From Pseudomonas sp. JQ170C (GTDB taxonomy: Bacteria > Pseudomonadota > Gammaproteobacteria > Pseudomonadales > Pseudomonadaceae): a stretch of 64,000 bases of DNA. Each line of letters starts with the position of its first letter. Position 1 is the stretch's first letter. Positions 24,421-45,517 of the stretch are shown piece after piece. The stretch covers positions 3,812,501 to 3,876,500 of the forward strand of contig NZ_CP141608.1 of the NCBI RefSeq assembly GCF_035581345.1, given 5' to 3'. Made by a program: the position numbers and the translations under genes. Under the pieces are notes generated by a model. The model was not told the origin of the DNA. It saw only the letters and a program-made list of their open reading frames with translations, and made no database searches.

Positions 24421-24724
24421 CAAGAGCGCAGCGAATTGTGCTTTTGATCTTGATCTACCCGCCCCGTTAACCAGAAGGGCCGAACGGAGGTGTCGTGGAG
24501 GGGCTAGCGCGCAGCGCCTTCGGCGAATGCCGAAGATGCGAAGCGTAGCGTTGCTTGCAACGCGTAGCTCGCAATGCCCCGTAGCGACACCGCAGTGAGG
24601 GCACCCGAAGCGCAGCGTAGGGCCCCTGGTGGGGCAAGCCCTTTGCTTACTTTGGGGCGTTTGCCAAAGTAAGGCGCCGTAAGGGCGCAAAGGTGAATCA
24701 GCGTCACCTTGGCCAATGGATAAG
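24421..24724 (+). repeat. Large structured intergenic repeat, copy 1
   Basis: About 304 bases from GAGCGCAGCGAATTGTG to CCAATGGATAA, homologous to two copies at 43.8-44.5 kb. Predicted stems are an outer pair GGTGTCG (24489-24495) with CGACACC (24585-24591), CTTCGGC-gaat-GCCGAAG (24518-24535), GCGTTGC-tt-GCAACGC (24548-24563), and CTTACTTTGG with CCAAAGTAAG near the end. Stems 3 and 4 have different but still complementary bases in the other copies. The ORFs it contains are artefacts. Confidence 0.85.
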
Positions 24725-24730
24725 ACCACC

Positions 24731-24844: not shown

Positions 24845-25489
24845 TCACCCACCCCGCCCCGCCACAATCAACACCCCGATCTGCTCAGCCAACCCCAGCA
24901 CCTGCAGATACGCCGCACTGTCCGCCACCAGACTGCGCCCCGCCCCCTGCCGCACCAGCGGCCCAACCCGATCCCCGAACAACATCAACGCCCGCGCACT
25001 GTCATCCTGGCGCGAAGTCCAGCACAGCCCCTGCACCTGCGCACATTGCCGGTGAATCGCCTCGGCCCACAGCCGGGTCAGCGGATACTGATCCTTTTCG
25101 GTATCGATCAACAGCTTGCGCGGCACCCCCAGCTTGCGCAGGGCCTTGCTGCCCAAATCCACCAGCAACAAATCCTGCCCACAATGCAGCAGCGAGTGTT
25201 GCTGACCAGCCAGCTTGCCCTTGTCATAGGTTTTGAACCCGGCGGCAAAAGGCACGTCATGAAACACCGTCTCCATCGCCGCACAATCGAAACTGGTGCC
25301 ACCGTACAGCGTCGGAATCGGCTGCCCATGCACATCACGGATCGGACTGAAACGCGCATTCCCCTGAAGGCCTGGATTGAACTGATCAGCGCCATAGCAC
25401 TCAAGGTGTACCCGATGAATCGGCGTTCCGGCCGCCCAGATCAGGGTCGATAGCTGCAGCCGGTCTGGCGGCTGCGGCGTATCAGCCAT
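24845..25489 (-). CDS. RES-domain toxin (NAD+-depleting)
   Basis: 214 residues with RES-family features: HRV (R26), the GNARFSPI segment with R46, LYGGTSFDCAAMETVFHDV with Y62 and E73, and the late WTSRQDDSARALMLFGDRV segment with conserved Ser and GDR. RES toxins degrade NAD+ and are held in check by a cotranscribed antitoxin. The gene starts inside the end of the upstream gene (8-nt overlap, 25482-25489), the usual antitoxin-first order. The family call is firm; the activity has not been shown for this copy. Confidence 0.87.
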   Translation of the reverse strand: MADTPQPPDRLQLSTLIWAAGTPIHRVHLECYGADQFNPGLQGNARFSPIRDVHGQPIPTLYGGTSFDCAAMETVFHDVPFAAGFKTYDKGKLAGQQHSLLHCGQDLLLVDLGSKALRKLGVPRKLLIDTEKDQYPLTRLWAEAIHRQCAQVQGLCWTSRQDDSARALMLFGDRVGPLVRQGAGRSLVADSAAYLQVLGLAEQIGVLIVAGRGG

Positions 25490-43666: not shown

Positions 43667-43681
43667 TGGGAATGATTATTT
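43667..43681 (-). promoter_or_regulatory. Candidate Fur box upstream of the STN-type receptor
   Basis: TGGGAATGATTATTT matches the 7-1-7 Fur pattern TGATAAT-N-ATTATCA at 10-11 of 14 informative positions, including the AAT-N-ATT core. It lies about 70 bases before the receptor start, so the receptor may have its own iron-repressed promoter. Confidence 0.55.
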
Positions 43682-43709
43682 TTGGTTCATCACGGATTGT
43701 CGGGAACGT

Positions 43710-43738
43710 TTGGCTTGGCTTGGCTTGGCTTGGCTGGC
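43710..43738. repeat. Short tandem repeat (TTGGC)5
   Basis: Five perfect TTGGC units plus a partial sixth, next to large-repeat copy 3. Likely length-variable by slippage. Confidence 0.85.
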
Positions 43739-43760
43739 TTGGGCGGTGGCGGTGGCGAGC

Positions 43761-44071
43761 TTATCCATTTTGTGTGGTGGGGCCACTGGCCCCTTCCGCC
43801 CTTACGGCGGCTTACTTTTTTTCAGTCGAAAAAAAAAGTAAGCAAAAAATTCTCGCCCCACCAGGGGCCCTACGCTTCGCTTCGGGTCCCCTCGCTACGG
43901 TGTCGCTACGGGGCATTGCGAGCTACGACTTGCTTCGCCAAGTCTACGCTTCGCAACTTCGGCCACGGCCGAAGGCGCTTCGCGCTAGCCCCTACACGAC
44001 ACCTCCGCTCGGCCCTTCTGGTTAACGGGGCGGGTGGATCAAGATCAAGAGCACAATTCGCTGCGCTCTTG
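43761..44071 (-). repeat. Large structured intergenic repeat, copy 3 (inverted)
   Basis: Read on the minus strand it begins with the GAGCGCAGCGAATTGTGCTC motif and runs to a GGATAA end like copies 1 and 2. It keeps the CTTACTTTTT-type terminal stem, the GACTTG/CAAGTC stem (43927-43932 with 43939-43944), and the CTTCGGCC-gt-GGCCGAAG hairpin. With copy 2 it forms a widely spaced inverted pair. Open frames inside are spurious. Confidence 0.85.
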
Positions 44072-44101
44072 CTTTTGGACCCCGGTGAATCAGTAGGCAC
44101 C

Positions 44102-44157
44102 GCTCTTTTGCTCTTTTGCTCTTTTGCTCTTTTGCTCTTTTGCTCTTCTGCTCTTCT
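44102..44157. repeat. Short tandem repeat (GCTCTTTT)5 plus (GCTCTTCT)2
   Basis: Five perfect GCTCTTTT octamers followed by two GCTCTTCT variants, lying exactly between inverted copies 3 and 2 of the large repeat. Probably grew from the CGCTCTTGCTTTTG end of the large element by slippage. Confidence 0.9.
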
Positions 44158-44170
44158 GCTTTTGCTTCTG

Positions 44171-44455
44171 CTTTTGATCTACCTGCCCCGTTAACCAGAA
44201 GGGCCGAACGGAGGTGTCGTGGAGGGGTGAGTGCGGAGCACCTTCGGCGCTAGCCGAAGTCGCGAGACGTAGACTTGGCGAAGCAAGTCGTAGGCCGCGA
44301 TACCCCGTAGCGACACCGGAGTGAGGGGACCCGTAGCGAAGCGTAGGGCCCCTGGTGGGGCGAGAATTTTTTGCTTACTTTTTTTTCGACTGAAAAAAAG
44401 TAAGGCGCCGTAAGGGCGCAAAGGTGACTCAGCGCCGCCTTGGCAAATGGATAAG
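44171..44455 (+). repeat. Large structured intergenic repeat, copy 2
   Basis: About 285 bases from CTTTTGATCTACCTGCCCCG to AAATGGATAAG, closely similar to copy 1. The stems are GGTGTCG with CGACACC, CTTCGGC-gcta-GCCGAAG, GACTTG (44272-44277) with CAAGTC (44284-44289), and CTTACTTTTTTT with AAAAAAAGTAAG. It ends about 80 bases before the fecR stop codon. Confidence 0.85.
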
Positions 44456-44533
44456 CCCGCAGCACTAAAAGCCACAAATTCACAAATCCACAAATCCACA
44501 AAGAACATCAAACCCGTAAATCCGTGAAGAACC

Positions 44534-45517
44534 TTATTTTTCGCCAGGCTGTCGTTCGATGCGCGTCCACAGCGGCGTAAACGACTGCAGGCGGATCGGC
44601 AAGGCCTGGGCCAGCAGTTGCAAGGCACGCTCGGTATCGTCCAGCGGCAGTACGGCAGACACCTTCAGATCGGCCAGGGCCGAGGCATCGAATTGCAGGT
44701 GCCCGCGACGCTGACGCCCCAGGGCCTCCAGCACCTTGGGCAGCGGCCATTGTTCGACCACCAGCTGATGACCCTGCCAGGCCTGCTCGAAGCTGGCGGG
44801 GTCGATGTCCGGCAGCCGGCCCACGGCATCGGGACGCACCCACACGCGCCCGCCGCGCTGCACGTCCAGGGCCTGGCGGTGGTCCGCGCTTTGCGCCGCT
44901 ACGCGGGAGTGCAACATGCTCAACTCGCTCTGCCCGTCCCCACGGCTGACCACAAAACGCGTGCCCAGGGCCTTGAAACTGCCGTCGTCGGTGACCACCA
45001 CGAACGGCCGCTCAGGGTCTGGCGCAACGTCCACCAGCACCTGCCCGCGCTGCAACTCGACACGACGCTGGCCACTGTCGAAGTTCAGGTCGACCGCGCT
45101 GTTGCCATACAGGGTGATACGCGAACCGTCCTCGAGCGTACGGGTGTGCCACTCGCCGGGCGCGGTGTGCAGGTCGACGAACAGGTCATCGATGCGGTAG
45201 CCGCCCAGGTGCATCACCAGCCCCAGGTTGGCCAGCAACACGCCGATGCCCAGCAGGTGACGGGCACGCGGTACCTTGCTGCGGCGCTTGCCGGTGACCT
45301 CCAGCGCGGCACGCACGGGCCGGCGCTGCGAGCGCAGGCTGTGCAGTTGCGCAACCACGCTGCTGATGCGATCGAAGGTGGCCAGGTGACGGCTGTCGAG
45401 CTGACGCCAGCGCTCGAACGCCTGGCGCTCCTGCTCGCTCAGCTCACCTTCGCCCAGGCGCAGGACCCACTCGGCCGCCTGGGCCTCGATACTGTCGTCA
45501 GCGTGCATCGGCTTCAC
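44534..45517 (-). CDS. FecR-family anti-sigma/sigma regulator
   Basis: 327 residues. The N-terminal cytoplasmic DUF4880 region (IEAQAAEWVLRLGEGELSEQERQAFERW) binds the sigma factor. A single membrane helix (LLGIGVLLANLGLVMHLGGY, about residues 88-107) follows, then the periplasmic FecR domain (GEWHTRTLEDGSRITLYGNSAVDL, RRVELQRGQVLVDV, SFKALGTRFVV). The C-terminal part should contact the receptor STN domain. Its start overlaps the sigma gene (ATGA). Its receptor gene lies downstream beyond the repeat block. Confidence 0.93.
   Translation of the reverse strand: MKPMHADDSIEAQAAEWVLRLGEGELSEQERQAFERWRQLDSRHLATFDRISSVVAQLHSLRSQRRPVRAALEVTGKRRSKVPRARHLLGIGVLLANLGLVMHLGGYRIDDLFVDLHTAPGEWHTRTLEDGSRITLYGNSAVDLNFDSGQRRVELQRGQVLVDVAPDPERPFVVVTDDGSFKALGTRFVVSRGDGQSELSMLHSRVAAQSADHRQALDVQRGGRVWVRPDAVGRLPDIDPASFEQAWQGHQLVVEQWPLPKVLEALGRQRRGHLQFDASALADLKVSAVLPLDDTERALQLLAQALPIRLQSFTPLWTRIERQPGEK

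Follow-up and report, generated by a model that had tools for sequence, protein, structure and literature searches.

Structured head-to-head repeats of Pseudomonas sp. JQ170C, probably a divergent branch of the TwoAYGGAY family, form the interior of an ISL3-type MITE

Introduction

What kind of element is a large intergenic repeat whose stems differ in sequence from copy to copy while their pairing is kept? The question arose from a 64,000-nucleotide stretch of Pseudomonas sp. JQ170C (contig NZ_CP141608.1, positions 3812501 to 3876500; hereafter the window), in which a first-pass annotation had noted three copies of such a repeat, the second inverted, and had proposed selection on a folded RNA or single-stranded DNA. 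We followed these copies through the whole genome, a single contig of 5.94 Mb that starts with DnaA-like and DnaN-like reading frames (by eye), and into related genomes. As developed below, the units are likely to be a mobile, structured, probably RNA-acting element of ~210-260 nt, constituting a divergent TwoAYGGAY branch with an added 3' domain.

Results

The repeats are abundant and mostly arranged head to head

The initial observation proved to be real, and the family is larger than first noted. The three copies share their stem order, and all four stems that had been named were found in place. A mechanical repeat search of the window returned an inverted repeat (43830-44056 against 44160-44386) that is 88% complementary, and a value of 91% for copy 1 against copy 2. 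Copy 3 had 58 BLAST matches in its own genome, comprising one scrap of 29 nt and 57 matches of more than 100 nt. When these 57 were ordered, leaving out the scrap, matches less than 200 nt apart formed 20 head-to-head pairs (minus then plus), 3 tandem pairs and no tail-to-tail pair. A model search added three further copies, giving 37 loci by our own count, 31 of which lie in the chromosome half opposite dnaA (binomial 2e-5). The units are thus repeats that stand mostly head to head, and in this genome such a pair forms the interior of a MITE. While the three repeats themselves hold, copies 2 and 3 turned out to be the two arms of one element and not independent insertions.

Copy 1 stands alone, with REP-like palindromes around it:

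24478..24725, plus strand: solo unit, copy 1; aligned core 24478-24693; the tail ends AATGGATAAG

Solo units are mostly flanked by such palindromes, which we take to be of the REP/BIME type and which sometimes form tandem REP-unit arrays (loci L031, L039 and L043). An ISL3 end was not seen at copy 1. The adjoining gene encodes a RES domain (24845-25489, minus strand; PF08808) and is possibly the toxin of a toxin-antitoxin system.

Copies 2 and 3 are facing arms of one ISL3-type MITE

Copies 2 and 3 lie within an 850-bp element, composed as follows:

43676..43683, no strand: left target-site duplication TTATTTTT, identical to 44534-44541
43684..43704, plus strand: left terminal inverted repeat GGTTCATCACGGATTGTCGGG, ISL3-type, found by pattern search; near-identical to the ends of a 1308-bp ISL3 IS
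43684..44533, no strand: whole 850-bp MITE with two head-to-head units, delimited by its ends, the duplication and an empty site in genome G102
43761..44014, minus strand: arm B unit (copy 2); aligned core 43791-44014; CTTATCCATTT just outside the tail end
44102..44163, no strand: central simple-sequence array (GCTCTTTT)n between the two heads, from the mechanical repeat search
44202..44450, plus strand: arm A unit (copy 3); aligned core 44202-44424; the tail ends AAATGGATAAG
44513..44533, minus strand: right terminal inverted repeat, GGTTCTTCACGGATTTACGGG on the minus strand, from end searches
44534..44541, no strand: right target-site duplication TTATTTTT, overlapping the FecR gene stop codon

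The insertion point of the MITE is the FecR stop codon (gene 44534-45517, minus strand), upstream of a TonB receptor gene. A common outer end is present in the flanks of 18 other pairs and of the window pair, where it reads GGTTCATCACGGATTGTCGGG on the left and AATCCGTGAAGAACC on the right. The left-end pattern, allowing up to 3 mismatches, had 34 matches in the genome compared to 0 in a reversed control, and a script located both ends in 19 of 19 pairs (at most 4 mismatches in 15 nt); in the 20th pair, L031, a single end of this type was recognised, the opposite side being occupied by a REP-unit array. Of the 19 pairs, 6 had identical 8-base sequences outside the two ends; allowing one mismatch raised the number to 12 and allowing two to 15, whereas shuffled right flanks gave 0.38, 0.99 and 2.8, respectively. 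For the window MITE, the 8-bp duplication is perfect. Genome G102 has the joined flanks without the MITE, contiguous over 355 of 360 nt at 81%, and the search of 149 genomes returned six more congeners whose sequence runs across the junction, at 67-71%. In four genomes (G065, G068, G097 and G118), elements of 1308 bp are delimited by the same ends, and a protein search covering G065 and G068 found a DDE_Tnp_ISL3 protein inside the elements of both. All five distinct complete copies of this 1308-bp ISL3 IS carry perfect 8-bp AT-rich duplications. Because of the shared ends, the 8-bp duplications, the empty site and the 1308-bp ISL3 IS, copies 2 and 3 are the facing arms of one ISL3-type MITE.

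The three ORFs of more than 100 aa inside or overlapping the MITE (134, 170 and 145 aa) contained no Pfam domain up to E 0.01, and the MITE was unmatched in 72,556 plasmid records (near mode) and 50,697 phage records (distant mode). Since no IS with the MITE's ends was seen in its own genome, where a single weak PF01610 match had none of them within 1.5 kb, the MITE would have been moved in trans by an ISL3-family transposase, for instance that of the 1308-bp IS of related genomes.

We then compared the arms between loci. An A arm was more similar to the A arms found at other loci (0.917) than to the B arm of its own pair (0.831), with 0.872 for B arms against B arms and 0.860 for A against B of other loci, a contrast that is partly by construction as arm A was named by BLAST score. 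With the orientation set in this way, the printed flanks show the GTCGGG-type end to the left and the TTACGGG-type end to the right. Arm similarity and end orientation are what copying of both units together would produce. Each pair holds three simple-sequence arrays, which vary in motif and length between loci; this variation suggests fast slippage and a possible use in strain typing. Motifs across MITE copies include GGTGAC, GGCTGT, GGTGGC, CCACAAAG and GCTCTTTT. At L094 (~1494-1521), a 28-bp palindrome consists of two ISL3 ends alone with AT-rich flanks, either a minimal MITE or a remnant. The window MITE resembles other ISL3-family MITEs in its terminal inverted repeats, 8-bp AT-rich duplications, lack of Pfam domains, ~20 copies and empty site, but differs in consisting mostly of two inverted structured units and three simple-sequence arrays, and in that similar unit pairs occur elsewhere without ISL3 ends.

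The unit fold is maintained by compensatory change

We analyzed the fold in two alignments, A1 comprising 54 distinct units out of 58 units found by pattern in the JQ170C genome, and A2 comprising 33 units from 14 genomes. The main stems of copy 1, with coordinates read by eye, are:

24489-24495 paired with 24585-24591, plus strand: P1, GGTGTCG/CGACACC; A2 helix 3, changed on both sides in 8 of 8 pairs
24518-24524 paired with 24529-24535, plus strand: CTTCGGC/GCCGAAG hairpin; A1 helix 5, nearly invariant in its own genome
24548-24553 paired with 24558-24563, plus strand: variable hairpin GCGTTG-CTTG-CAACGC; A1 helix 7, changed on both sides in 2 of 6 pairs
24646-24655 paired with 24664-24673, plus strand: terminal stem CTTACTTTGG / CCAAAGTAAG; A2 helix 10, changed on both sides in 6 of 11 pairs
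24674..24688, plus strand: last hairpin GCGCC-GTAAG-GGCGC, the most conserved piece; A2 helix 11, 100% of cells paired

The variable hairpin reads GCGTTG/CAACGC in copy 1 and GACTTG/CAAGTC in copies 2 and 3, as had been claimed, and the two pairs said to be changed on both sides behave accordingly in A1, one being AU in 44 units and CG in 10, the other CG in 27, GC in 26 and broken in 1. Likewise, the terminal stem is rewritten, with CTTACTTTGG / CCAAAGTAAG in copy 1 replaced by a T-run version. The last hairpin (A1 helix 12) shows CG 28 times and GC 26 times. Predicted RNA folds of copy 1 (z -4.25) and copy 3 (z -5.04) fell below all 200 shuffles each.

Within the genome, 14 of 67 A1 pairs were changed on both sides, compared to 11.4 in shuffles (13 of 500 reach 14), and the covariation score was 0.172 versus 0.084. 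Further pair types in A1 were no more numerous than in shuffles, 482 of 500 of which equalled or exceeded the observed count; a family with few alleles should behave in this way. Across genomes the signal was far stronger. In A2, both-side changes affected 32 of 50 pairs against 21.8 +/- 1.9 in shuffles, 91.3% of cells paired against 78.0%, and none of the 500 shuffles, which leave the relatedness of the units in place, reached either value. The A2 covariation score was 0.402, compared to 0.167 in shuffles and at most 0.093 in slid structures; the six slid structures reached at most 52.1% paired cells and 17 both-side pairs, a comparison in which the A2 structure is favoured because it was derived from the same alignment. 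P1 itself is rewritten between genomes, reading GGTATTGC.../...GCAATGCC at L067 and GGATTTATCC.../...GGATGAATCC at L073. Since stems are rewritten between genomes while helix order is unchanged, inversion of a palindromic segment, which the first-pass annotation had raised against its own reading, does not explain the differences. Its call for covariation in a wider alignment is answered in substance by the shuffles and slides, on a structure taken from that same alignment, and selection on a folded single strand is supported by A2 pairing and both-side changes exceeding all 500 shuffles. These data show that the fold of the unit is maintained by compensatory change.

Related units pair head to head in other gammaproteobacteria

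DNA similarity to the units was found in 20 of 24 congeners besides the JQ170C genome and in 0 of 13 genomes of other genera. The model built from A2 reached further, with matches in 25 of 143 gammaproteobacterial genomes, our own included. Outside this genome, A2-model matches less than 1 kb apart made up 10 head-to-head pairs and, by eye, no other arrangement, and these came from 6 genomes of 6 families. Among the matches listed, at 79 of 80 loci, R1 matches less than 3 kb apart gave 26 head-to-head, 5 tandem and 3 tail-to-tail pairs, and a count by tail pattern, which overlaps the R1 count in part and includes own-genome loci, gave 26, 1 and 3, again among the matches listed. Xanthomonas loci L177 and L194 carry tail-to-tail pairs, unlike most other loci. 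The terminal hairpin alone was present, among the matches listed, in Cupriavidus, Xanthomonas, Lysobacter, Methylophilus and Psychromonas, and by pattern only, among the matches listed, in records labelled Cystobacterineae, Oscillibacter, Verrucomicrobia and Flavisolibacter. The generic head-to-head pairs elsewhere showed no ISL3 ends, and their GGATA tail ends gave no signal of a target-site duplication in the 24 of 26 head-to-head elements that had enough flank. At two loci in two genomes, L070 (612-2001) and L074 (528-2010), a unit pair lies between two divergent cobalamin riboswitches, and at L087 (496-694) a C4 antisense RNA with its target region lies near a unit pair.

At four gammaproteobacterial loci, L154, L160, L166 and L171, facing units enclose 0.8-1.2 kb with one main ORF. 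The GC content of these ORF regions is 0.449, 0.521, 0.424 and 0.541, respectively, versus 0.525-0.634 in the flanks, and the four enclosed ORFs had no Pfam match. At the L154 site, both units and ORF are missing from a congener that retains the flanking genes; at the L160 site, a congener carries a different gene and lacks any R1 match. At these two sites, the ones compared, we thus see presence and absence, which is not proof of joint movement. Three other candidates for enclosed cargo were set aside. At L233 (a RES domain, with Beta_protein below the Pfam cut-off and PD-Lambda-2_C weakly), the units are of different subtypes and their outer flanks are unrelated, so we read them as two separate solos; at L202, an RHS-like ORF (by eye, no Pfam match) lies between two pairs and not within one; at L224, partial tail matches 4.4 kb apart around an ABC-transporter-like operon (by eye) were not counted.

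The units share their scaffold with TwoAYGGAY

The first-pass annotation knew of no function for the repeat. The family does have known relatives, since other Pseudomonas copies pass the cut-off of the Rfam model of TwoAYGGAY, RF01731. The window units do not: the window gave no match at the gathering threshold and segment 43600-44560 none up to E 5, and the whole genome gave one match, at E 1.5e-5. Elsewhere, the full model matched L072 (59.1 bits), L173 of P. viridiflava (55.2 bits) and L218 of Psychromonas (75.8 bits); both arms of L155 passed the cut-off of 43 (43.3 and 43.2); L067 and L087 exceeded it on the hairpin part of the model; and L079 and other loci stayed just below. RF01731 was above cut-off in 51 of 99 Pseudomonas genomes; of the loci searched from outside Pseudomonas (Xanthomonas, Cupriavidus, Lysobacter, Methylophilus and MAGs), most had no match. 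Rfam matches to microRNA families at E 0.01-0.8 were taken as chance.

The likeness lies in an outer stem around two hairpins, in the same order, and loci alignable with the window units pass the cut-off. A2 helices 2-4 place the outer stem of the window units at the same position as in L067, L072, L079 and L087, and the 3' half common to the window unit and L067 was matched by BLAST at 79% over query positions 100-213 (E 5e-21). Close to the foot of P1 the Rfam match breaks off, whereas the shared body runs on for ~100 nt, comprising hairpin 3, the terminal stem and the CGCC-GTAAG-GGCG tail, which R1 also detects beside the Psychromonas RF01731 match. Besides these parts beyond the model end, the window units differ from TwoAYGGAY by lacking AYGGAY loops and an Rfam match. 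TwoAYGGAY has been listed as a probable RNA that is probably not cis-regulatory (Weinberg et al., 2010, PMC2864571); Rfam, unlike that study, types RF01731 as Cis-reg. The passages on TwoAYGGAY in this literature hold nothing on repeats, pairing or mobility, and head-to-head pairing and MITE carriage are unmentioned there.

The window branch lacks the predicted Rsm sites

From motif matches, TwoAYGGAY has been predicted to bind CsrA (PMC4333381), and RF01731 shares the Rfam clan CL00106 with RsmZ. We scored A-N-GGA loops closed by at least 4 pairs in the 69 A3 rows of at least 180 nt (47 shorter rows were dropped). Such loops occurred in 46 of these 69 long units on the plus strand, compared to 1 of 69 on the minus strand and 4 of 69 after shuffling, and 20 of 69 had two or more. 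Among 27 congener units, 14 carried an ANGGA loop, two of them probably by chance. In contrast, none of the 57 own-genome units tested (54 + 3) had one, and the two AYGGAY hairpins of the motif are therefore not found here, in a genome that does contain RsmZ. Paired GGA hairpin loops are hence absent from the window branch and present in part of its relatives. The window branch thus appears to be a divergent one that keeps the chassis without the predicted Rsm sites, and we regard the unit as probably a mobile structured-RNA repeat that descended from an Rsm-binding form. The repeats resemble the CsrA/RsmA-binding sRNAs RsmZ, RsmY and CsrB in the RsmZ clan membership and the GGA-loop hairpins of many relatives, but differ in being mobile, in reaching at least 25 copies per genome versus a few sRNA genes, and in the missing GGA loops of the window branch. 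In branches with ANGGA loops, the likely action would be binding of an Rsm/CsrA dimer, in line with the published prediction. Because the window branch is without these loops, its structure would probably be kept for another partner or for its own persistence as a tolerated intergenic passenger.

Gene context and transcription ends

Cis-regulation of a particular gene class was rejected, as neighbours look different between loci; in this comparison, Pfam names were used for the genes at the window copies only, and the gene calls across loci came from a crude score of GC by codon position that misassigned the strand of the FecR gene. A different role at gene ends, with the unit serving as a terminator or 3'-end protector for which an intergenic place is least harmful or most useful, seems unlikely to us, although several features point that way. 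In the T-rich subtype, both arms read GCCCCTGGTGGGGC then GAGAATTTTT on their own strand and CGCCCTTACGGCG then CTTACTTTTT on the opposite strand, and a crude coding score placed 34 loci as 11 convergent, 3 divergent (the window MITE being wrongly counted among these) and 20 co-directional. Four terminator-like sites were found, which is little above the chance level of 2.1 +/- 1.5 in shuffles, and T-runs are absent from the other subtypes. A tail-repeat-tail bias has been described for other Pseudomonas repeats together with the same terminator idea (PMC2718517), but convergent placement is also expected of any tolerated insertion, and a terminator has no need of covarying internal hairpins.

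The head-to-tail strand is probably selected as RNA

We next asked which strand carries the fold. In A2, the plus strand had 139 G-U cells in 25 columns versus 14 A-C cells in 7 columns, compared to 90 in 12 versus 63 in 20 for the best fold of the minus strand; in A1, the corresponding G-U and A-C cells were 153 and 27 on the plus strand and 27 and 25 on the minus strand. The excess of G-U over A-C on the head-to-tail (plus) strand therefore points to selection on this strand. Folding energy was also lower for it in 81 of 81 units, but was discarded as strand evidence, since dinucleotide shuffles of 39 units (27 from other genomes, 12 own) gave an equal gap (-13.4 in units, -12.7 in shuffles). 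The head-to-tail strand is thus probably the selected one, most simply as RNA, a reading that we favour over single-stranded DNA; the strand would then act as an RNA.

That the fold instead serves the element's own replication or transposition as single-stranded DNA, as in REP/RAYT or IS200/IS605, we consider distinctly improbable. The GNA-type hairpin loops, with every base found at N in A1, suit this idea, as a GNA loop is a stable DNA loop, and GNA triloops and G-T pairs also fit single-stranded DNA. GTAG repeats and REP-like neighbours at solo copies agree with it, as does the DNA mobility supported for the MITE. However, a DDE transposase, which acts on double-stranded ends and can do without the internal fold, explains the MITE; A2 pairs 165-178, 166-177 and 184-227 show G-U more often than any other state, as is typical of RNA; and relatives carry the CsrA RNA motif, the ANGGA loops, on the same strand. 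Finally, neutral copying, with complementary changes arising by gene conversion or inversion between palindromic arms, is very improbable: the few hairpin alleles are shared, the GACTTG and GAGTTG types occurring in arms of either kind, which makes exchange between copies likely, and A1 pair types do not exceed shuffles, but the 32 of 50 A2 pairs changed on both sides over 14 genomes are reached by 0 of 500 shuffles and 0 of 6 slides, and conversion does not predict that G-U is kept far more often than A-C.

Discussion

Intergenic, fold-prone families of fitting size and number have been catalogued in Pseudomonas, namely Ppu-1 of P. putida, with a 617-nt model and 39 copies (PMC2267715), and R200 of P. 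fluorescens, with 320 bp and 47 copies in SBW25, described together with R26 (PMC2718517). By their descriptions, Ppu-1 and R200/R26 may be the same repeats as the window units; the passages on them give no function, pairing rule or TwoAYGGAY link. REP/BIME palindromes, among which window-type solo units sit, differ clearly, REP being a single hairpin of a few tens of nt (model 39 nt, PMC2267715) whereas the unit is multi-helix and several times longer. New in our analysis are the conserved 3' domain beyond the Rfam model, the head-to-head pairing in several gammaproteobacterial families and the carriage of units by an ISL3 MITE.

A bolder extension, which we put forward tentatively and hold to be doubtful, is that TwoAYGGAY-type units are transposable riboregulators. 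Mobile head-to-head repeats would seed dozens of RsmA/CsrA decoys and so rewire a global post-transcriptional regulator; some lineages, including the present one, would have swapped the protein-binding loops and kept the chassis; and elsewhere in the gammaproteobacteria the pair would bracket single low-GC genes, as if carrying cargo.

According to the reading of the units as a divergent TwoAYGGAY branch, an Rfam orphan filed as a cis-regulatory motif would be a high-copy Pseudomonas repeat whose conserved body extends past the Rfam model, whose units stand preferentially head to head and which has one or more DNA vehicles. The useful question would accordingly shift from one regulated gene to the effects of many decoy copies. 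As one scaffold occurs naturally in units that carry Rsm-type loops and in units that lack them, the CsrA prediction should be directly testable.
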